A stretch of 64,000 nt of DNA from Pedobacter sp. L105 (GTDB taxonomy: Bacteria; Bacteroidota; Bacteroidia; Sphingobacteriales; Sphingobacteriaceae), in contig NZ_LMUP01000007.1 in assembly GCF_009765875.1 (NCBI RefSeq), forward strand, positions 124,001 through 188,000, written 5' to 3'. Position 1 is the stretch's first letter; the number at the start of each line of letters is the position of its first letter. This document shows positions 45,766 to 55,788 of this stretch, in pieces. The notes beneath the pieces were generated by a model, which did not search any database, had not been told where the DNA came from, and saw only the letters and a program-made list of their open reading frames with translations. The position numbers and the translations under genes are program-made.

Positions 45766-46488
45766 TTATCTCCCTAAAATCTTTTTTACCACAAAATTAT
45801 CAAAGAAATAGCTCCGGTATGAATTGCCGATCGGGATTTCAAACTTCCGGATTAAAACAGTATTGTTATCAAATGAAGTGATCTCATTGACATTGATCAC
45901 GTAAGACTTGCTGATCCTTACAAAAATATGTTGCGGCAATTGCTCATGGATGGTTTTTACATTCATCGCGGTGATGACCCTCTGGTCTTCAGTTTGCATC
46001 ACTACATAATCTTTTAAGCCCTCAATAAAAAGAATGTCTTTGAATTGAACTTTTATAAAACGTCGCTCTGACTTCACAAAAAAGTAATCATCTCCTTTAT
46101 GCTGGATTTCACTGGTCGGGATTTCACTTTCTAACAACTTGTTATATGCGAAGGCTTTGTTCAGGGCTTTTTGAAAACGCTCTTCTTTTACCGGTTTCAT
46201 CAGGTAATCCAATGCATCCAGTTCAAAACCTTCCAGTGCATATTCGGGATAGGCGGTAGTAAAAATAATCAGCGTATGCTTAGGAACGGTTTTAGCAAAC
46301 TCTATCCCATTTAGGCCGGGCATCTGAATATCAAGAAAAATAAGGTCGACCTTTTCTTCCTGCATATATTTCCCTGCTGTCAATGCATTACTAAAATCGC
46401 CCACAATTTCTAAGTTAGCAACTTCAGCAGCCAACAACAATATGGCTTGCCTGGCTAAAGGTTCGTCATCAATGATTATAGCCTTCAT
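45766..46488 (-). CDS. LytTR-type response regulator
   Basis: A 240-residue regulator: receiver domain (about 1-120) with the acidic pocket Asp7/Asp8, the phospho-acceptor Asp53 in LIFLDIQMPGLNG and the Lys of YLMKPVKEE, then a LytTR DNA-binding domain (about 140-240; FFVKSERRFIKVQFKDILFIEGLKDYV, RISKSYVINVNEI). Its start overlaps the kinase stop by 4 bp. LytTR proteins bind two direct repeats spaced about two helical turns; the divergent promoter region upstream has exactly such pairs (47598-47631 and 47727-47760). Confidence 0.95.
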   Translation of the reverse strand: MKAIIIDDEPLARQAILLLAAEVANLEIVGDFSNALTAGKYMQEEKVDLIFLDIQMPGLNGIEFAKTVPKHTLIIFTTAYPEYALEGFELDALDYLMKPVKEERFQKALNKAFAYNKLLESEIPTSEIQHKGDDYFFVKSERRFIKVQFKDILFIEGLKDYVVMQTEDQRVITAMNVKTIHEQLPQHIFVRISKSYVINVNEITSFDNNTVLIRKFEIPIGNSYRSYFFDNFVVKKILGR

Positions 46489-47543
46489 ATCTTGATTTTT
46501 AAATGCACATCGAAGGTTTTCGCATCATCAGTAATGATTAACTGGTACCGGTTTGGATAAATCAATTCTAACCTTCGTTTTACGTTGGCTAATCCCAGGC
46601 CCCCACCGCCATTTTGGGCAACTTTGATACGTGGTATGGAGTTGATGCAGCGAAAATGAAGTTCCCCATCTACAACGAAGAAAAAAACATCAACAAAAGA
46701 AGGTTCTTCTGCATCGATATTGTGTTTGATGGCGTTTTCGACAAAGGTAATGAATAATAAAGGCGCTATTTCAACACCCTCCAGCGCGCCATCCTTACAA
46801 ATGGTGAAATCAAAATTATCACGTCTGATTTTTTCCAGGTTTAAGAAATCTTCCAGAAACTGAATGTCTGAGGTCAGAAACACGTTACTCTGCACACTAT
46901 CATACAATTGATAGCGCAACAGATCGCTCAATTTTATTAAAACCTGCGACGCTCTTACCGGGTCTATCTGCGTTAAGACATTGGCATTGTTGAGCATATT
47001 AAACAAGAAATGAGGATTGATCTGTTTTTTTAAATGCTCCAGCTCTGACTGGATAGTAGCCGTTTCCAGGTCATTGATCCTTTGCGAATCAACGATCCAG
47101 CGCTGGAATAGTTTTACCGCAGCCGATGCGCCAAAGAGTATCATAAATATAAAACTGAACGCGAATAGGTTAGGCCCGTCATGCGGCCGGGCGTAAACAG
47201 TTTTAATATGAAAAAACATAAATTCTTTAATCTTAGAAACAAGCGTTTGAACCAGCACAAACCAGCCTATGATCCATAAAAAATAACCCAGATAGTTATC
47301 TCTGAAAAGCAGTCTTGGAACTAACAGGTACATATTGATATAAAACAACGAAAGCAACATGGAGAACATGGCAATCTTGGCATAAGTGTTTACGGGTTCC
47401 GTAAATTCCACATTACCATTATAGAATGCAGCCACCAGCAGCACAATTAAACTTAAATGCCGGAATATACGGTACCTGGGACTGATCAGGAACTTAAGGA
47501 TGATCTCATTATGAAACGGCTTGGCCGTAGGTGCAGCACTCAT
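46485..47543 (-). CDS. LytS/YehU-type sensor histidine kinase
   Basis: The 352-residue kinase has four hydrophobic membrane segments (about 25-45, 55-78, 85-105, 125-145), a linker helix, the His_kinase motif LKKQINPHFLFNMLNNAN with His178, and a C-terminal ATPase domain with FVENAIKHN and GGGLGLANVKRRL. There is no large periplasmic sensor domain, so the signal is probably sensed in the membrane or through a partner. It forms a two-gene operon with the LytTR regulator and is divergent from the TonB/MacAB operon. Confidence 0.94.
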   Translation of the reverse strand: MSAAPTAKPFHNEIILKFLISPRYRIFRHLSLIVLLVAAFYNGNVEFTEPVNTYAKIAMFSMLLSLFYINMYLLVPRLLFRDNYLGYFLWIIGWFVLVQTLVSKIKEFMFFHIKTVYARPHDGPNLFAFSFIFMILFGASAAVKLFQRWIVDSQRINDLETATIQSELEHLKKQINPHFLFNMLNNANVLTQIDPVRASQVLIKLSDLLRYQLYDSVQSNVFLTSDIQFLEDFLNLEKIRRDNFDFTICKDGALEGVEIAPLLFITFVENAIKHNIDAEEPSFVDVFFFVVDGELHFRCINSIPRIKVAQNGGGGLGLANVKRRLELIYPNRYQLIITDDAKTFDVHLKIKI

Positions 47544-47597
47544 AGTATTTCTAAATAACTAATCTAAAGGTACACAATTGAACCAAGCGCCTTTTTG

Positions 47598-47631
47598 CTA
47601 TTATACCAAAGCGGATAACTATTATACCAAA
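47598..47631. promoter_or_regulatory. Direct pair of CTATTATACCAAA boxes (candidate LytTR site, kinase side)
   Basis: CTATTATACCAAA occurs exactly at 47598-47610 and again at 47619-47631, a 21-bp step, 55 bp upstream of the kinase start. Known LytTR regulators bind paired direct repeats with about this step, so it may be the autoregulatory site. Confidence 0.6.
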
Positions 47632-47726
47632 ATATTTTTTTTAACAAATGGCGGTAAAAAACTAACCTGACCAACTCTCCATACAAATTAATTAAATCCA
47701 TTTTTATTGATATAACCAAAATCCAT

Positions 47727-47760
47727 TTTTGTATAATAAGTGACTTCTTTGGTATAATAG
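47727..47760. promoter_or_regulatory. Direct pair of TTTGGTATAATAG boxes (candidate LytTR site, TonB side)
   Basis: TTTGGTATAATAG at 47748-47760 is the exact reverse complement of the boxes at 47598 and 47619. A near copy (TTTTGTATAATAA, 11 of 13 matching) lies 21 bp upstream at 47727-47739. The pair ends 50 bp before the receptor ATG. Confidence 0.6.
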
Positions 47761-47810
47761 GAAGATTTGGTATTGGTGCGGCCCATAGTTTAGTGCCAAA
47801 TCAAAAAAAT

Positions 47811-50132
47811 ATGCTTAGAATACCTTTACTTTTATGCTTTGTTTTTAGCGTGATTTTCGCCTTTGGGCAGAAAAGATATAGCATTAGCGGCACCGTTAAA
47901 GATAATACCACGGGTGAAACACTCATTGGTGCATCTGTCAGGATCAAAGAGATTCCGCAGGGCGGAACATCAACCAACAGTTATGGATTTTATTCCGTAT
48001 CGGCTCCCGATGGCGATTATACCCTGCTCTACAGTTACCTCGGGTATGAAACAGTTTCCCGTCAGGTTTCCATCCATAAAAGCCAGGTTATTGATATCCG
48101 CATTACGCCAAACAGTTCTTTAAAAGAGGTAGTAATCAGCGCCAATAAACCAAATAACGATCAGATATCTTCGCCACAAATGGGGCTTGAAAAACTGAAC
48201 ATGGCCCAAATTAACGCTGTGCCTGTGGTTTTTGGTGAAAAAGATGTGTTGAAGACCATTACCTTAATGCCGGGAGTGAAGTCTGGTGGCGAGGGTAATA
48301 CAGGGTTTTATGTGCGTGGAGGGGCTTCTGATCAGAACCTGATTTTACTGGACGAGGCACCCGTTTATAATGCCTCTCACTTGTTTGGGTTTTTCTCTAC
48401 TTTCAATTCTGATGCGATTAAAGATGTGAGCATCTATAAAGGAGGTATGCCTGCAGAATATGGCGGACGCCTGTCATCGGTACTGGACATCAAAATGTTT
48501 GACGGAAATACCGAAAAGTTTACCGTACAGGGCGGCCTTGGCCTGATTGCCTCAAGGCTTAAAGTTGAAGGGCCAATAGACAATGGCAAAGGGTCATACA
48601 TGGTGAGTGCAAGAAGAACATATATTGATCTTTTCACCAAAGCCTCAAAGGATTCTACCGTTAAAGGAAGCTCACTTTATTTTTATGATGTAAATGCTAA
48701 AGCGAATTACCACTTTGACAGCAATAATGCTATTTTCTTTTCGGGTTATTTTGGAAAGGATGTGATTGCTTTAAAAAACACTTTCGGCACCAACTGGGGC
48801 AATACAACAGGAACAGTGAGGTTTAATCATGTTTTTAGCCCAACGCTGTTTTCTAACACCTCATTGATTTACAGTAACTATAATTACGTTGTTCAAAGTT
48901 TTCAAACCGACAACAGCTTTAAAGCGACTTCAAAAATAACTGACCTTAACCTTAAAGAAGACTTTCAATGGTCGGCCAGTGACGATCACCGGGTTAAGTT
49001 TGGGTTCAACGTGATTCACCATAACATTGAGCCGGGAAATATTTCATCCGATGCAGATAATGTGAACGATATCAACGTACAGAAGCGTAATGGCTACGAA
49101 GATGCAATTTATGTTAGCGACGAGTGGAAGGCAAGCAGTAAATTAACAATACTATATGGACTGAGGTTAAGTGGCTTCTCTCTGGTTGGCCCGGGAACAA
49201 TTGATACGTATAATACCGCAGGAGAGGTAACGGATACTAAAACCTATAGTTCTGGTCAGACGGTTAAAAGTTATTATTATCTGGAACCACGGTTTTCTGC
49301 CGGCTATCAGCTGAATGACGAAAACTCCATCAAAGTTTCTTACAACCGCAATACCCAAAACATCCACCTGTTATCCAATTCAACCACCAGTTCGCCAACA
49401 GATCTGTATGTGATGAGCAGCAATAACATTAAACCTGAAATTGCCGACCAGGTATCTACGGGTTATTTTAAAAATTTTAGCGACAATAAGTTTGAGTTCT
49501 CTGCAGAGGTTTATTATAAATGGCTGCAAAACCAGATTGACTATAAAGACGGTGCCCAGTTAATTGCCAACCAGGATGTAGAATCGCAATTGGTATATGG
49601 TTCTGGAAGGGCTTATGGACTGGAACTTTTCTTAAAGAAAAAGTATGGTAAGTTTAACGGATGGGTGGGTTATACCTTATCTAAAACGGAGGATAAATTT
49701 GCTGCGATCAATAATGGCAATTATTTCCCGGCCAGACAAGACCGTACACATGATGTTTCAGTGGTTGGTATTTACCAATATAACAAACGCTGGTCCTTTT
49801 CAAGCGCATTTATCTATGGAACAGGGAATGCGGTTACTTATCCCACTGGTAAATACAGCACGGGCGGCTTAACCACTTTTTCTTATTCCGGACGTAATGG
49901 TTTCCGCGAACCCGCAACTAACCGTTTGGATGTAGGCGCTACGCTTGAAGGCAAGGAACATAAAAAATATCATTCCAGCTGGACCTTTAGCATCTATAAC
50001 ATTTACGGAAGCAGAGAACCTTATTCCATCACTTTCCGCGATAGCAAGACTGTAGCCAACACTACCGAAGCTGTAGAAACCAGCATTTTCGCTACCCCTA
50101 TCCCATCAGTAACCTGGAACTTTAAATTTTAA
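47811..50132 (+). CDS. TonB-dependent receptor with carboxypeptidase-regulatory-like domain
   Basis: About 773 residues. A signal peptide (MLRIPLLLCFVFSVIFAFGQ) starts at the ATG at 47811; an in-frame GTG at 47793 would add six residues. Then come a carboxypeptidase-regulatory-like domain (ISGTVKDNTTGETLIGASVR), plug (GVKSGGEGNTGFYVRGGASDQNLILLDEAPVYNASH) and a barrel ending VTWNFKF. It is not a SusC; it belongs to the shorter receptors that pair with DUF4249 lipoproteins. It opens an operon with DUF4249, TolC and MacA-like genes, under probable control of the divergent LytTR system. Confidence 0.94.
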   Translation: MLRIPLLLCFVFSVIFAFGQKRYSISGTVKDNTTGETLIGASVRIKEIPQGGTSTNSYGFYSVSAPDGDYTLLYSYLGYETVSRQVSIHKSQVIDIRITPNSSLKEVVISANKPNNDQISSPQMGLEKLNMAQINAVPVVFGEKDVLKTITLMPGVKSGGEGNTGFYVRGGASDQNLILLDEAPVYNASHLFGFFSTFNSDAIKDVSIYKGGMPAEYGGRLSSVLDIKMFDGNTEKFTVQGGLGLIASRLKVEGPIDNGKGSYMVSARRTYIDLFTKASKDSTVKGSSLYFYDVNAKANYHFDSNNAIFFSGYFGKDVIALKNTFGTNWGNTTGTVRFNHVFSPTLFSNTSLIYSNYNYVVQSFQTDNSFKATSKITDLNLKEDFQWSASDDHRVKFGFNVIHHNIEPGNISSDADNVNDINVQKRNGYEDAIYVSDEWKASSKLTILYGLRLSGFSLVGPGTIDTYNTAGEVTDTKTYSSGQTVKSYYYLEPRFSAGYQLNDENSIKVSYNRNTQNIHLLSNSTTSSPTDLYVMSSNNIKPEIADQVSTGYFKNFSDNKFEFSAEVYYKWLQNQIDYKDGAQLIANQDVESQLVYGSGRAYGLELFLKKKYGKFNGWVGYTLSKTEDKFAAINNGNYFPARQDRTHDVSVVGIYQYNKRWSFSSAFIYGTGNAVTYPTGKYSTGGLTTFSYSGRNGFREPATNRLDVGATLEGKEHKKYHSSWTFSIYNIYGSREPYSITFRDSKTVANTTEAVETSIFATPIPSVTWNFKF

Positions 50133-50136
50133 TCCA

Positions 50137-50934
50137 ATGAAGACTATTCAATCTTATATAAGCCTATCCATCATATTGCTTTTTGCAACAGCCTGCACCA
50201 AGGTAGTTGATATCAAGGTGGGTAATGACACCGGCAGACTGGACATTGAAGCCAATGTGACGAATACAAGCTTACCGCAAGTGATCAGATTAAGTAAAAA
50301 CGTACCCTTTACGGATACCAATACTTATCCGGCCGTTACCGGGGCAACGGTATCGGTCACTGATCAAAGCGGACAGGTTTATCCCTTTGTAGAGGGACCC
50401 ACTGGAACCTATACCAGCAATTCATTAACCGGTGTGGCCGGTAATACTTATAAAATGACTGTGCTGACCAATGGCAACACCTATAATGCAAGTTCCGTAA
50501 TGCCGGCACAGGTGATGTTAGATACTTTAACTTCTCAAAACACACCAACCCCGGGCAGCGACAACAAGAAGGAAATTTCAGTGCACTACCATGATCCTAT
50601 TGGCGTTGACAATCATTACCGTTTTGTTTTGTGGGTGAACGGCGTACAGGAGAGAGTTGTTTTTGCAGCTGATGATCAGTTTAACGATGGAAAAGATGTA
50701 AGCGTGATTTTAAGACAGGATGACGTAGATATCCATGCCGGCGACAAGGCGGTTGTAGAAATGCAATGTTTAGATCAGCCTATTTATTTATACTGGTTTA
50801 CCTTATCACAACAGAGTGCTGACGGACCGGGTGGCAGTGTAACCCCATCAGATCCCCCAACAAATATTAGTCCTGTATCCCTGGGTTACTTTAGTGCCCA
50901 TACCACCCAAACAAAAAGTATAATTGTCAAATAA
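50137..50934 (+). CDS. DUF4249 lipoprotein, partner of the TonB receptor
   Basis: A 265-residue lipoprotein (LLFATAC lipobox, Cys20) with the DUF4249 pattern: RLDIEANVTNTSLPQVIRLSK, GATVSVTDQSGQVYPF and GNTYKMTVLTNGNTYNASS. These proteins sit beside TonB receptors and are thought to be their surface lids, by analogy with SusD. It starts 4 bp after the receptor and is followed after 1 bp by the TolC gene. It is rather short for the family, and the C-terminal Ser/Pro/Gly-rich tail may be a linker. Confidence 0.9.
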   Translation: MKTIQSYISLSIILLFATACTKVVDIKVGNDTGRLDIEANVTNTSLPQVIRLSKNVPFTDTNTYPAVTGATVSVTDQSGQVYPFVEGPTGTYTSNSLTGVAGNTYKMTVLTNGNTYNASSVMPAQVMLDTLTSQNTPTPGSDNKKEISVHYHDPIGVDNHYRFVLWVNGVQERVVFAADDQFNDGKDVSVILRQDDVDIHAGDKAVVEMQCLDQPIYLYWFTLSQQSADGPGGSVTPSDPPTNISPVSLGYFSAHTTQTKSIIVK

Positions 50935-50935
50935 A

Positions 50936-52276
50936 ATGAAAACCAGGAAGTTATTACAACTGATGGTAGTGGTTTGTCTGATGGGTTGGTCGACCGGACT
51001 ATTTGCCCAGGACAGTTTAAATGTATCTCCCGGTGCATGGCATTTGCAAAAGTGCCTGGATTACGCCAGGAAAAATAATATTCAACTCAACTCCTTAAGG
51101 CTGGATCAAAAGACCAGCCAGCAGGAGTTGTTATTGTCCAAGAGTGCAGTACTCCCCGGCTTGTCGGGCTCTGCAAGCCAAAACTACGCCCACGGCAAAA
51201 ATCTGGATGTCAACACCGGGAACTATCAGTCAGGATTTACTCCGAGTGGCAGTTATAGCCTGAATAGCTCTGTAGTGCTTTACCAGGGAGGCTACCTTAA
51301 AAATGATATCCAACAAAAAAACTTATCCCTTCAATCGGCAAATCTAAGTGTGCAGGAACAGGAAAATAATATCACCCTGACCATTACGCAGTCTTACCTG
51401 AATATTCTGCTGGACAAAGAAACCATTATTTACGAGGAGGAAATTGTAAATACATCCCAGGCACAGCTTGACAATGCGAAGCAAAAGCTGGTTGCCGGAA
51501 GTATAGCCGGCAAAGACGTTGCCCAGCTGGAATCACAATTGGCAAATGACAAATATACCCTGGTATCGGCAAAAAACACCCGTCGCCAGGATCTGCTGGC
51601 ATTGAAGCAGTTGTTACAGTTACCCATTAGCTATTCACTGGAGATTGTTGACCCCGATACGGTGATTGCCAAAAAAGCGGTACCGGCCTTAAACCTTGTT
51701 GTGGACAATGCCATGTCATTCAGACCGGAAGTTAGAATAAGTGAGCTCGGTGTTGAAAGTGCGAACATTAGCCTGGCAAAAGCCAAAACTGGCTTTAAAC
51801 CAACGTTAACCGCCAATGGTTCTGTGGGATCAAGTTATGCCGGTACCACGCCGGGATATTTCCGGCAGCTGAACAATTATTTTAACCAGCAGGTGGGAAT
51901 CACCTTGTCTGTGCCCATTTTCAGTAAGCGGGTAACCAAAACCAATGTGGAAGAAGCCAAAATTAATATCGACCAGGCGGTGCTTACCCTGCAGGATACC
52001 AAAACTACGCTTTCGCAAAATGTTGAAAAATCATATATCAATGTCCTTACTGCAGAAAGTCAATATGATGCCGCTGCCGAAGCTTTGCGATATAACAAAG
52101 AGACCTACCGCATTGCCGATGAGCAACTATCGCTGGGTGCAACTGCGATGGTAGATTTCCTGCAGCAAAAGGCTTTGTACGTGCAGGCACTCCAGAATTT
52201 TATACAAGCAAAATACAATGCGGCATTGACTATTGAAATATACGATTTCTATAATGGCGTGCCTGTGCAACTTTAA
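50936..52276 (+). CDS. TolC-family outer-membrane efflux protein
   Basis: A 446-residue outer-membrane factor that forms the exit duct for the adjoining adaptor and ABC pump. The ATG at 50936 gives MKTRKLLQLMVVVCLMGWST as signal; an earlier TTG is less likely. The two repeated OEP halves (WHLQKCLDYARKNNIQLNSLRL; SFRPEVRISELGVESANISLAK) and long coiled-coil helices (EIVNTSQAQLDNAKQKLVAG, YNKETYRIADEQLSLGATAM) are visible. It overlaps no gene but follows DUF4249 by one base. Confidence 0.94.
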   Translation: MKTRKLLQLMVVVCLMGWSTGLFAQDSLNVSPGAWHLQKCLDYARKNNIQLNSLRLDQKTSQQELLLSKSAVLPGLSGSASQNYAHGKNLDVNTGNYQSGFTPSGSYSLNSSVVLYQGGYLKNDIQQKNLSLQSANLSVQEQENNITLTITQSYLNILLDKETIIYEEEIVNTSQAQLDNAKQKLVAGSIAGKDVAQLESQLANDKYTLVSAKNTRRQDLLALKQLLQLPISYSLEIVDPDTVIAKKAVPALNLVVDNAMSFRPEVRISELGVESANISLAKAKTGFKPTLTANGSVGSSYAGTTPGYFRQLNNYFNQQVGITLSVPIFSKRVTKTNVEEAKINIDQAVLTLQDTKTTLSQNVEKSYINVLTAESQYDAAAEALRYNKETYRIADEQLSLGATAMVDFLQQKALYVQALQNFIQAKYNAALTIEIYDFYNGVPVQL

Positions 52277-52288
52277 TATCCAGCAACA

Positions 52289-53482
52289 ATGAAAAAGTCT
52301 ACCAAAAATATATTACTAACCGTTATACTGATCGTCGCAGCTGTCTGCATTTGGGTGTTGTTTTTTCATAAACGAAGCAAACCCATTGCCCTGGTAACGG
52401 AGAAACCTGTTTACGGCAACATTGCGCAAAGTGTTACCGCTACCGGCACCATCGAACCTGTAGATACCGTATCCGTGGGTACGCAGGTTTCCGGAACAAT
52501 CAGTGTGTTGAATGCCGATTTCAACTCCAAGGTGAAAAAGGGGGAGTTACTGGCGCAATTGGATAAATCACTATTACAGGCGGTGGTTGATCAGGATAAA
52601 GCAAATTTGCGCACACAGAAGAGTTCACTGGCCTTTAATGAAAGTACATACCGCCGGCAAAAATTACTTTATGGCGTTAAAGCAATTAGCAGGGCCGACT
52701 ATGAAACGGCGCTTAATAATTACAATGCTGCAAGTGCCGGCGTAGCTAATGCGGAAGCAGCTTTAAGATCTGCCGTGAAGAACCTATCTTATGCGGATAT
52801 CTTTTCACCAATTGATGGTGTAGTTTTGTCAAGGAACATCAGTATTGGTCAGACAGTAGCTGCTTCTTTTAGCACGCCAACCCTGTTTGTTTTAGCAAAG
52901 GACATTACCAAAATGCAGGTAGAGGCCGCTGTAGATGAAGCCGATATAGGCACTGTGCATCAGGGCCAGCGGGCTACTTTTACCGTGGATGCTTATATGG
53001 ATGATTCATTTAGCGGCATGGTGGCTGATGTGCGTTTGCATCCAAAAGTTTCCTCCAATGTGGTTACTTATGCTACGATCATCAAAGCCCCTAATGAGGA
53101 TATGAAGCTAAAGCCAGGGATGACCGCTAACATCGTAGTATATACCAAAGAGGTGAAGCATGTTTTGCTGATCAGTTCCAAAGCTTTAAATTTTTCACCT
53201 GATTCTACACTGAAGAAGGATTATGTCATTGACACGGCTGTGAAGAGGCTTCCAAAAACAACAGTTCCAAAAGCAAAACCAGGTGCTGTATGGGTACTAT
53301 CCGGAAACAGGCTCAATGAAGTGCAGGTACTTACAGGCCTGGATGACAATACGCATGTTCAGATTCTGGAAGGCCTGAGCGCCGATCAGCAGGTGGTGAC
53401 CTCCTATCCTATTCCGGGAGAAACGGCCAGCTCTTCTTCGCTATTCCCTAAACCACCTGAAAGCAATTCAAAGAAGAAATAA
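52289..53482 (+). CDS. MacA/HlyD-type periplasmic adaptor (membrane fusion protein)
   Basis: The 397-residue adaptor links the ABC pump to TolC. It has an N-terminal membrane anchor (8-27), the barrel-sandwich start TGTIEPVDTVSVGTQVSGTI, a lipoyl-like half at FSPIDGVVLSRNISIGQTVA flanking a coiled coil (about 100-165), a beta-barrel (VEAAVDEADIGTVHQGQRAT) and a MacA-style C-terminal part (RLNEVQVLTGLDDNTHVQIL). It begins 12 bp after TolC. Confidence 0.93.
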   Translation: MKKSTKNILLTVILIVAAVCIWVLFFHKRSKPIALVTEKPVYGNIAQSVTATGTIEPVDTVSVGTQVSGTISVLNADFNSKVKKGELLAQLDKSLLQAVVDQDKANLRTQKSSLAFNESTYRRQKLLYGVKAISRADYETALNNYNAASAGVANAEAALRSAVKNLSYADIFSPIDGVVLSRNISIGQTVAASFSTPTLFVLAKDITKMQVEAAVDEADIGTVHQGQRATFTVDAYMDDSFSGMVADVRLHPKVSSNVVTYATIIKAPNEDMKLKPGMTANIVVYTKEVKHVLLISSKALNFSPDSTLKKDYVIDTAVKRLPKTTVPKAKPGAVWVLSGNRLNEVQVLTGLDDNTHVQILEGLSADQQVVTSYPIPGETASSSSLFPKPPESNSKKK

Positions 53483-53782: not shown

Positions 53783-54532
53783 ATGAATAACAAGATCCTT
53801 GAACTGAATGATATCAAAAGGCATTTCCAAATGGGGACAGAAGTGGTTAACGCACTGAAAGGCGTATCCTTTGACGTGTATGCTGGCGAGTTCGTGACCA
53901 TTATGGGAAGCAGCGGTTCTGGTAAAACTACCCTGTTGAACACCTTAGGATGCCTTGATAAACCAAGTGAGGGCACTTATTCCCTGGATGGGATCAATAT
54001 TGGTCTGCTGAACCGGGACCAGCTGGCCAAATTACGCAATGAAAAGATCGGTTTTGTTTTCCAGGCTTATAATCTGCTGCCCCGTACTTCAGCACTCGAA
54101 AATGTAGAATTGCCTCTTTTTTATAATCCTTCGGTCAGTGCTGCCGAAAGGAAAGAGAGGGCGATTGCCGCATTGGAGGCGGTTAAACTTGCCGAAAGAA
54201 TGTACCATATGCCCAACGAATTATCTGGCGGACAGCAACAGCGGGTAGCCATTGCAAGGGCACTGGTAAATGAGCCGGTGATGATACTGGCGGATGAGGC
54301 TACCGGAAACCTGGATACCAGGACGTCCTACGAAATTATGGCACTGATGCAGGAACTGAACCAGTCAAAAGGAAAAACTATCGTTTTTGTAACACATGAA
54401 CCTGATATCGCTGCATTTAGCGGTCGCACGATTACGCTTAGAGATGGTAGGGTGATGAAAGACAATACCAATGAAAACAAGCGGGATGCAAAGGAAATGC
54501 TGGCTTCACTCCCGGTTACGGAAGATTATTAA
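53783..54532 (+). CDS. MacB-like ABC transporter ATP-binding protein
   Basis: The 249-residue ATPase has Walker A GSSGSGKT (42-49), Q-loop FVFQAYNLLPR, signature LSGGQ (147-151), Walker B MILADE (167-172) and switch His in VFVTHEPD. It belongs to the LolD/MacB type with the short C-terminal tail. With the permease 35 bp downstream and the adaptor plus TolC upstream it makes a tripartite MacAB-TolC-type pump; such pumps export peptides, lipoproteins or macrolides. Confidence 0.96.
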   Translation: MNNKILELNDIKRHFQMGTEVVNALKGVSFDVYAGEFVTIMGSSGSGKTTLLNTLGCLDKPSEGTYSLDGINIGLLNRDQLAKLRNEKIGFVFQAYNLLPRTSALENVELPLFYNPSVSAAERKERAIAALEAVKLAERMYHMPNELSGGQQQRVAIARALVNEPVMILADEATGNLDTRTSYEIMALMQELNQSKGKTIVFVTHEPDIAAFSGRTITLRDGRVMKDNTNENKRDAKEMLASLPVTEDY

Positions 54533-54567: not shown

Positions 54568-55788
54568 ATGAAACTAATCAACCTTGTGCTGCTTGCGATA
54601 AAAGCGCTACAACGGAATAAATTAAGGGCCTTTTTAACCATGCTGGGTATTATTATCGGCGTAGCGTCGGTGATCACTATTGGTGCTATAGGAAATGGCT
54701 CCACTATCAGCATCCATAGATCTTTGTCTGGCCTGGGTTCTAACCTGATTACTATTCTGCCCAATAGTAACGTTCCGGGCGGTGCAAGGCTACAGGGTGC
54801 TGACGTGGAGACCCTCACTTTTAAAGATATTACGGCAATCAAACAACATGCTGTTTATGTTGCGTATGTATCCCCTTCTTCACAGGCAAAAGGACAGGTG
54901 ATCAATGGATCGTTAAACTGGCCAACAACTATCAATGGCGTAAATTCGGATTTTTTAACGATCCGTAACTTGTCTGTACAGGATGGAATTTCATTTTCCG
55001 AGCGGGACATACGCACCTATGCAAAGGTTTGCCTGTTGGGTAAAACTGTAGTAAAAAACGTTTTTCCGAAAGGTGTTAACCCAATTGGTAAGGTGATTCG
55101 ATTTAACAAAATCCCCTTCCAGGTAATTGGTGTATTGGCACCCAAAGGGCAGAACACTTTTGGCCAGGATGAAGATGATGTCATTTTATCTCCCTATACT
55201 ACCGTTCAAAAGAGAATAGTTTCATCAATATATTTTGGAAGTATCTATGCATCGGCCAAGTCGGAAGATTTATCTGATCAGGCATCAAAAGAATTAACCC
55301 GGATTATGAGGGCATCTCATCGCCTGCGCGATAATGCAGATGATGATTTTGTGATCAGGACGCAGGAGGAACTGATTAAAACACTAAGTTCTATTACCAA
55401 TTTATTAACTTATTTATTGACCGGAATTGCGGCCATCTCTTTGTTGATTGGCGGAATTGGCATCATGAATATCATGTATGTATCAGTTGTAGAAAGAACC
55501 AAGGAAATAGGCTTAAGAATGTCTATCGGGGCCAGAGGTATTGATATATTAAGCCAGTTTCTGGCTGAAGCAGTGATCATTAGTGTTGCCGGCGGATTAA
55601 TAGGGATAATTTTAGGTGAAGGCCTTGGTTATATGATTTTTCATCTTTTAAAGTGGCCACCTGTAGTGAACACCACATCAATACTGGTATCCTTTTCTTT
55701 TTGTACGGTAATAGGTGTTTTCTTTGGTTATTATCCTGCTTTAAAAGCATCGAGATTAGACCCTATTGAAGCCCTTCGCTATGAATAA
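54568..55788 (+). CDS. MacB-like ABC transporter permease (FtsX family)
   Basis: A 406-residue permease. The N-terminal LINLVLLAIKALQRNKLRAF and LTMLGIIIGVASVITIGAIG form the first helix, then comes a large periplasmic MacB-type domain (about 40-270), and three C-terminal helices (about 275-300, 325-350, 365-390) typical of FtsX domains end in LKASRLDPIEALRYE. The product drives mechanotransmission rather than forming a channel in characterised relatives. It ends the operon. Confidence 0.95.
   Translation: MKLINLVLLAIKALQRNKLRAFLTMLGIIIGVASVITIGAIGNGSTISIHRSLSGLGSNLITILPNSNVPGGARLQGADVETLTFKDITAIKQHAVYVAYVSPSSQAKGQVINGSLNWPTTINGVNSDFLTIRNLSVQDGISFSERDIRTYAKVCLLGKTVVKNVFPKGVNPIGKVIRFNKIPFQVIGVLAPKGQNTFGQDEDDVILSPYTTVQKRIVSSIYFGSIYASAKSEDLSDQASKELTRIMRASHRLRDNADDDFVIRTQEELIKTLSSITNLLTYLLTGIAAISLLIGGIGIMNIMYVSVVERTKEIGLRMSIGARGIDILSQFLAEAVIISVAGGLIGIILGEGLGYMIFHLLKWPPVVNTTSILVSFSFCTVIGVFFGYYPALKASRLDPIEALRYE

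Follow-up and report, generated by a model that had tools for sequence, protein, structure and literature searches.

Described LytTR operators and the intergene of the window

In the available portion of PMC4847170, almost all LytTR regulators are described as binding repeats of 9-11 nt separated by spacers of 11-13 nt, with no consensus common to them. As at the locus considered here, the operators of YpdB, AgrA and AlgR consist, in the published material available, of two direct repeats of ~10 bp, 11 bp apart and upstream of the promoter. The LytTR Regulatory Systems (LRS) in the part of PMC6193735 that was available autoregulate through repeats just upstream of their promoters; two LRS-like operons of Bacteroides are included, with B. 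thetaiotaomicron carrying two 11-bp repeats, 11 bp apart, before a -7 element that Table 3 of that paper prints as TATCTTTG. As for possible targets, receptors of the BT2172-type subfamily are, in the accessible part of PMC11003636, nearly always neighbours of a DUF4249 gene, and disrupting either one has similar effects; that part discusses no regulator or operator for the BT2172/BT2173 operon of Bacteroides thetaiotaomicron.

The window, a 64,000-nucleotide stretch of DNA from Pedobacter sp. L105, contains the same TonB-DUF4249 pairing. Its intergene 47544-47810 lies between a leftward kinase-regulator pair and a rightward TonB/DUF4249/TolC/HlyD-adaptor/MacB operon. The features are as follows.

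45766-46488, minus strand: response regulator with receiver and LytTR domains, 240 aa, the proposed binder of the boxes (Pfam Response_reg 3.7e-20, LytTR 4.3e-17)
46485-47543, minus strand: sensor histidine kinase of LytS type, 352 aa, opening the regulator operon (Pfam His_kinase 1.6e-20)
47565-47572, minus strand: putative -7 element of the kinase promoter, TACCTTTA, one letter off TAnnTTTG, 38 bp from the start of the proximal box
47598-47610, minus strand: kinase-side proximal box, 13-mer CTATTATACCAAA on the plus strand, core TTTGGTATAA at 47610-47601 on the minus strand
47619-47631, minus strand: kinase-side distal box, identical 13-mer CTATTATACCAAA, 21 bp away
47706-47715, plus strand: weaker third box on the TonB side, ATTGATATAA, keeping the 21-bp phase, two mismatches to the consensus
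47727-47739, plus strand: TonB-side distal box, core TTTTGTATAA, two mismatches to the reverse complement of CTATTATACCAAA
47748-47760, plus strand: TonB-side proximal box, core TTTGGTATAA, exact reverse complement of CTATTATACCAAA
47786-47793, plus strand: putative -7 element of the TonB promoter, TAGTTTAG, one letter off TAnnTTTG, 38 bp from the start of the proximal box
47811-50132, plus strand: TonB-dependent receptor with an N-terminal carboxypeptidase-regulatory-like domain (Pfam CarbopepD_reg_2, Plug, TonB_dep_Rec_b-barrel)
50137-50934, plus strand: DUF4249 protein (Pfam PF14054 5.5e-24)
50924-52276, plus strand: TolC-like outer membrane efflux protein (Pfam OEP 3.5e-54)
52289-53482, plus strand: MacA/HlyD-like periplasmic adaptor (Pfam HlyD_D23 1.3e-20)
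53783-54532, plus strand: MacB-type ABC ATPase, after a 300-bp gap (Pfam ABC_tran 3.2e-33)
54568-55788, plus strand: MacB-type permease (Pfam MacB_PCD 4.2e-47)

The arrangement of boxes bears out what an earlier note on this DNA had claimed from its letters: CTATTATACCAAA is present twice, exactly, 21 bp apart, and its mirror copies, one exact and one with two mismatches, share the 21-bp period. The distances of about 50-55 bp to the two gene starts likewise hold, as the outer box edges lie 55 bp from the kinase start (47543) and 51 bp from the TonB ATG (47811); the open reading frame of the receptor is listed from a GTG at 47793, and the ATG was taken as its start. Read towards each gene, the consensus is TTTNGTATAA-N11-TTTNGTATAA with a period of 21 bp, and both pairs match it without mismatch. 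Given that the fourth letter of the box is variable, the TonB-side "near copy" pair is in fact a perfect consensus pair. This format of 10-bp boxes with an 11-nt spacer falls within the LytTR range, in agreement with the claim that LytTR regulators bind direct repeats two turns apart and with the repeat format in the available portion of PMC4847170.

The kind of operator is therefore already known, since LytTR and LRS direct repeats before promoters appear in the available parts of PMC4847170 and PMC6193735. Compared with the LytTR operators in the former, what characterizes the present locus is the TTTNGTATAA box, its recurrence among Bacteroidota and its fixed distance to the -7 element. As regards the LRS of the latter, direct repeats precede the predicted promoter of the kinase-regulator pair here, which may be autoregulated. 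An LRS regulator pairs with a membrane inhibitor, whereas the neighbour here is a His_kinase protein, which places the operon outside the LRS definition; the Bacteroides LRS regulators have transmembrane segments, and that of the window is a receiver-LytTR protein. By the printed spacers, the Bacteroides LRS repeats have a period of 22 bp and lie 45 bp from the start of the second repeat to the -7 element, as opposed to 21 and 38 bp here, and the letters of the boxes differ as well (TCCGGTATTCA).

Neither the motif, nor the 21/38 geometry, nor paralog-specific boxes were found in the partly accessible literature on LytTR, DUF4249 and BT2172, in which few subscription journals were represented. 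Within that same coverage, no regulator for TonB/DUF4249 operons was found, and apparently no site for a kinase-paired Bacteroidota LytTR regulator. LytTR regulators can be numerous in Bacteroidota genomes and belong to a poorly understood family, for one group of which these boxes may serve as an address label.

Single boxes are not rare, with five in the window at ≤2 mismatches versus 3.5 expected. Pairs behave differently: TTTNGTATAA-N11-TTTNGTATAA at ≤3 mismatches has three matches in the window versus 0.16 expected, all of them in 47544-47810 and two sharing one box. Three such matches occurred in none of 100 shuffles of the whole window, and not one of 5,000 shuffles of the intergene gave even a single pair at ≤1 mismatch of 20. 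Nevertheless, the box letters were derived from this very intergene, and hence the independent test is the comparative one. Across the whole 6.39-Mb genome there are three pairs at ≤3 mismatches of 26, and none in a control with the reversed pattern. The third genomic pair (L034, 6766-6799) is of the same kind, lies at the same distance to TAGTTTAG and carries the same CCATAGTTTAG as the TonB promoter. No convincing gene was found downstream of it, and it may be left over from a copy of the target operon that has been lost.

Recurrence and promoter geometry beside regulator orthologs

The window regulator has 13 orthologs in same-genus genomes, at 46-60% identity. To these genomes were added the best 80 of 560 candidates from named Bacteroidota genomes, and the sample therefore represents the nearest relatives and not all of them. 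From 94 oriented loci, 79 regions were retained after the exclusion of eight loci without a kinase match or regulator (L106, L107, L111, L113, L115, L129, L141, L152), six with truncated or fused kinase ORFs (L099, L102, L109, L110, L117, L139, of which L109 also repeats L042) and one that was too short (L158). L048, which is 43% identical and whose best pair has six mismatches, was left out of the oriented loci, and the kinase start of L042 was placed by hand. In the latter locus, from Pedobacter rhizosphaerae (L042:7902-8963), the kinase is divided between two ORFs, with both mirror operator pairs still in place.

A TTATACCAAA pair at spacing 21, with ≤4 mismatches of 20, is present upstream of the kinase gene in 51 of the 79 regions. 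Boxes had been expected beside orthologous LytS/LytTR operons by the earlier note, and they are indeed there rather than absent; the concrete motif it had proposed for this LytTR subgroup also stands, as the TTTNGTATAA pair recurs with the orthologs of the regulator. Other spacings from 10 to 45 give 0-13 of the 79 regions, except for 20 at spacing 42, which fits third boxes because 42 is twice 21. Sixty shuffles of the 79 regions yielded a mean of 0.27 with a pair and a maximum of two; among controls, a pair occurs in the kinase coding sequence in 1/79 and in other windows of the same loci in 23/3,229. Of the 65 regions from named genomes, which were retrieved by protein once the motif was settled, 40 contain the pair. 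When the regulators are dereplicated below 90, 80, 75, 70 and 65% identity, the pair is found in 40/64, 26/48, 24/44, 18/34 and 13/28, respectively. By class, it precedes the kinase in Flavobacteriia (19/20), Chitinophagia (9/10), Sphingobacteriia (9/12) and Cytophagia (1/1), in same-genus loci (10/13) and in rows without a class, the window included (3/4); none was found before the kinase in Bacteroidia (0/18) or Saprospiria (0/1).

The 28 regions without a pair before the kinase were searched at their operon heads and for degenerate pairs, both post hoc, after the misses were known, and with looser rules. Nine have a pair at the operon head: ahead of TonB in a TonB-first operon (L035, L084, L096, L140), ahead of the gene preceding the kinase (L150), and in L091, L092, L098 and L114. 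One has its pair before a downstream operon (L040), a kind of which L150 has a second pair. Five have a degenerate pair only, though at offset 38 (L093, L095, L097, L126, L133). For the remaining 13 the operon-head search found none (L041, L101, L103, L105, L112, L121, L124, L127, L131, L134, L149, L153, L157), with several of these operon heads being uncertain or off the contig; the sole pair of L041 has five mismatches. The degenerate-pair search covered 21 loci, 14 of them with a TonB-sized gene upstream, six of these 14 being not assigned to Bacteroidia. The best-scoring pair lies at exactly 38 in 10 of the 14, with three offsets allowed (L035, L092, L093, L095, L096, L097, L098, L114, L126, L133). 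Scores were poor for L101, L153, L084 and L140, in the last two because their -7 element is non-standard. Exact or degenerate boxes with a perfect -7 element at offset 38 are seen in the Bacteroidia loci L092, L093, L096, L097, L098 and L126 and in the unplaced MAG L114. The candidate Bacteroidia sites are mostly degenerate, and in rearranged loci the boxes are often found with the promoter at the new operon head.

Promoters of Bacteroidota have the consensus -33 TTG and -7 TAnnTTTG. A sigma-70 scan gave nothing useful, the scan model not covering promoters of this phylum. The geometry was read from 91 oriented sites in the 51 pair-bearing loci, 48 facing the kinase and 43 facing the divergent side. 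TAnnTTTG (≤1 mismatch) begins at an offset of exactly 38 from the proximal box start in 59 of the 91 sites and at offsets 37-39 in 80, versus a mean of 0.76 elsewhere. Judged by this offset, the predicted operator lies upstream of the core promoter. A conserved -33 element is absent: TTG occurs in at most 5 of the 91 sites at any position 10-24 bp past the box start. In most sites the proximal box spans 38 to 28 bp 5' of the -7 element and is thus clear of it; given this and the lack of a conserved -33 TTG, the layout is that expected of an activator-dependent promoter.

The same signature was of little use as a pattern for whole genomes. Scans for TTATACCAAA pairs at three mismatches (among the matches listed) and for the promoter signature at two mismatches both came near the reversed control in most genomes, and a genome-wide regulon defined by pattern was abandoned. 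Since the signature scan at two mismatches approximates its reversed control, weak sites are not callable genome-wide, and only sites with 0-1 mismatch, or sites beside a LytTR gene, were used. Seven matches to the signature have no mismatch, six at ortholog loci and one before the RND operon of L287.

Predicted target operons

Divergent operons in the subgroup closest to the window usually consist of a TonB receptor of ~790 aa and a DUF4249 protein. These targets were identified by BLAST in L037, L038, L039 and L035 (in which both precede the kinase), and were judged in the remaining loci from gene lengths (~790 and 273 aa). A second subgroup has as its target an outer-membrane-barrel-like protein of ~330 aa, either by itself or preceded by a protein of ~144 aa. 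Members of this family opposite the orthologous kinase-regulator pair include L125:5672-6643 (minus strand), L044:11399-12391 (plus strand) and seven more that were aligned. Five of the nine members were run against Pfam (E up to 0.01) and six of the nine against NCBIfam (E up to 0.1), without a match in either; L045 and L120 were left out of both runs. For the ~330-aa protein, structure prediction gives a beta barrel with moderate confidence (pLDDT 68), and its TM-scores against the PDB are ≤0.43 among the 50 matches listed. These are generic barrels, and we therefore claim no function for the protein.

Pumps are found at three places among the loci examined, namely MacAB-TolC in the window; L036, where TolC, adaptor, permease and ATPase genes are present and another TonB gene has a further pair upstream; and L287 of genome G001, where a type A pair (that of the window regulator's group) is followed by genes for a 147-aa protein, TolC, HlyD and an AcrB-type RND pump. 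The pair and RND operon of L287 (2450-8684) are on a contig other than that of the regulator. The prediction that one regulator controls both its own genes and the pump operon is supported, within limits. The box pairs and their recurrence with the orthologs point to control of the kinase-regulator genes and of the operon opposite; however, the commonest partner of the regulator orthologs is the TonB/DUF4249 pair or the barrel protein, and not a pump. In the window, moreover, the MacB genes follow only after 300 bp, and because this gap splits the adaptor from the ATPase, co-transcription of the full pump is presumed. No terminator-like site was found in the gap.

What the boxes may provide is a link between one orthologous group of regulators and TonB/DUF4249 operons and, in some species, efflux pumps and an outer-membrane-barrel family. 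Together, the motif and its fixed promoter geometry would make such targets predictable from sequence.

Proposed mode of action and the box types of paralogs

We consider it very likely, going by sequence and its conservation, that both mirror pairs are operators of the adjacent LytTR regulator, through which it activates both promoters. Each TTTNGTATAA pair, with one box per 21 bp (two helical turns), would bind the regulator on one face of the DNA, so positioned that the bound protein sits just upstream of a promoter that has a -7 TAnnTTTG and no good -33 element. The LytS-type kinase, presumably by phosphorylation in response to a signal, would activate the regulator, which may then recruit RNA polymerase at both promoters. 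The result would be autoregulation of the kinase and regulator together with expression of the divergent TonB/DUF4249 operon, here with the MacAB-TolC pump.

The sign of this regulation is not fixed by any sequence feature, and the regulator could repress from the same boxes, or act differently on each side, such that loss of the signal opens the pump operon. We regard this as improbable, as the proximal box keeps clear of the -7 element at promoters without a conserved -33 TTG, and HdrR, a LytTR regulator whose promoter has repeats immediately 5' of it, activates its own expression in the available part of PMC6193735. A different arrangement, in which both pairs are joined in a single large palindromic complex or DNA loop and the promoters are obligatorily coupled, would suit the presence of both mirror pairs in 40 of the 51 pair-bearing loci. 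Nevertheless, the gap between the mirror pairs ranges from 5 to 251 bp without a single helical phase, and single-sided loci and operon-head sites exist; such a complex was rejected as very improbable, and, since the distance varies, each promoter looks like a separate copy of the same module. Finally, the box begins with TTTG-like letters in an A+T-rich intergene, and the repeats might be taken for core promoter elements (-33/-7) or for chance repeats. Yet a separate TAnnTTTG-like element is present 38 bp downstream, with the proximal box ending 28 bp before it, and neither the shuffles nor other spacings give the pair; this reading, too, was rejected, and we give it almost no weight.

It is also conceivable, though quite unlikely in our estimation, that the boxes are read by another regulator, for example another LytTR protein of the same genome, which has 26 LytTR-domain matches (one of them short). 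Three types of box were distinguished: type A is TTTNGTATAA, type B is GTTSGTNGAA and type C is NTTGGGATAA. Types A and C differ in few letters: the type C threshold is also reached by 6 of the 11 type A loci. An A-like pair at ≤5 mismatches is present, too, in 13 of the 30 type B loci. On the other hand, the type A box recurs with the orthologs of the window regulator across genomes, operon rearrangements and classes, and another paralog group has a best box of its own. The paralog in L192, with orthologs in 59 of 60 same-genus genomes, was followed through 30 fetched loci, in which GTTSGTNGAA recurs at period 21; type B fits 30/30 at ≤5 mismatches of 20 and is the best type in 29, its consensus having been read from these same loci, whose regulators, the query aside, share 82-93% identity with the query. 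A -7-like element (≤1 mismatch) was identified by reading 36-38 bp on in 23/30 of them (range 33-44 searched), and a repeat of at least 9 of 10 letters at spacing 21 occurs in only 10/30, other spacings giving at most four. Among 17 other paralog loci, type C (GTTGGGATAA) gives the best fit in six, type A in two and type B in two, while none does so in seven. L012 and L018, without a kinase or regulator ORF, were dropped from this comparison. The L202 paralog was discarded as a further box group, as its orthologs have no consistent pair and 0/17 loci fit types A-C.

A quick tree was made of 83 regulators (from 136, near-copies of >80% identity removed), with the type B and L202 loci represented in part. 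The 48 dereplicated orthologs fall on one side of a starred branch, and the box labels need 8 changes versus 28.5 when shuffled. Type A is the label of 29 of the 48 orthologs, and of 7/24 in the window's own subclade (4 mismatches), the rest being mostly Bacteroidia; outside the ortholog clade, type A was called off-type for L021, L033, L207 and L235. Thirteen positions of the LytTR region separate type A from type B regulators, among them 142, 143, 174, 175, 179, 193 and 208 in the numbering of the window regulator.

Activation by the adjacent regulator from the type A boxes remains our preferred reading for the window. Whether it belongs to a wider pattern, in which many Bacteroidota kinase-LytTR pairs share one scaffold while each paralog group has its own box letters, is in our view a matter of even chances. 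The scaffold would comprise a 21-bp box period, a -7 element ~37-38 bp on and no -33 element, often mirrored over a divergent target. It is seen with different letters in two of the paralog groups and is missing from a third. Upstream of 25 paralogs in the window genome, six have a 12-mer repeat (at least 10/12) at spacing 21, versus 0-3 at other spacings of 13-40, and the scaffold is therefore not universal. If the pattern holds, the full regulon of a regulator would be predictable from its own promoter, and box letters could be matched to the LytTR residues by which the groups differ. The box types offer a natural data set for studying DNA recognition by the unusual LytTR fold.

A few other places carry similar repeats. 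In L292 (4246-4353), the GTTGGGATAA boxes of another LytTR paralog show the mirror layout, with its kinase-regulator genes on one side and a gene of 814 aa on the other, and in the same genome a similar pair precedes a DUF5694 gene (L290:5494). In L204 (C23 of the window genome), two identical ATTCATCACATTTT repeats lie 21 bp apart, 90 bp before the first gene of an operon that comprises a 498-aa ORF and a 227-aa LytTR regulator. Lastly, TTGATCTA...TTGGTATAA, a mixed pair followed at the same offset by TTTG, was identified by reading in 23 genomes, including C23:508430 of the window genome and L291 (G009:C1:5347528), where it lies on the divergent side of a type B regulator and faces ABC transporter-like genes.
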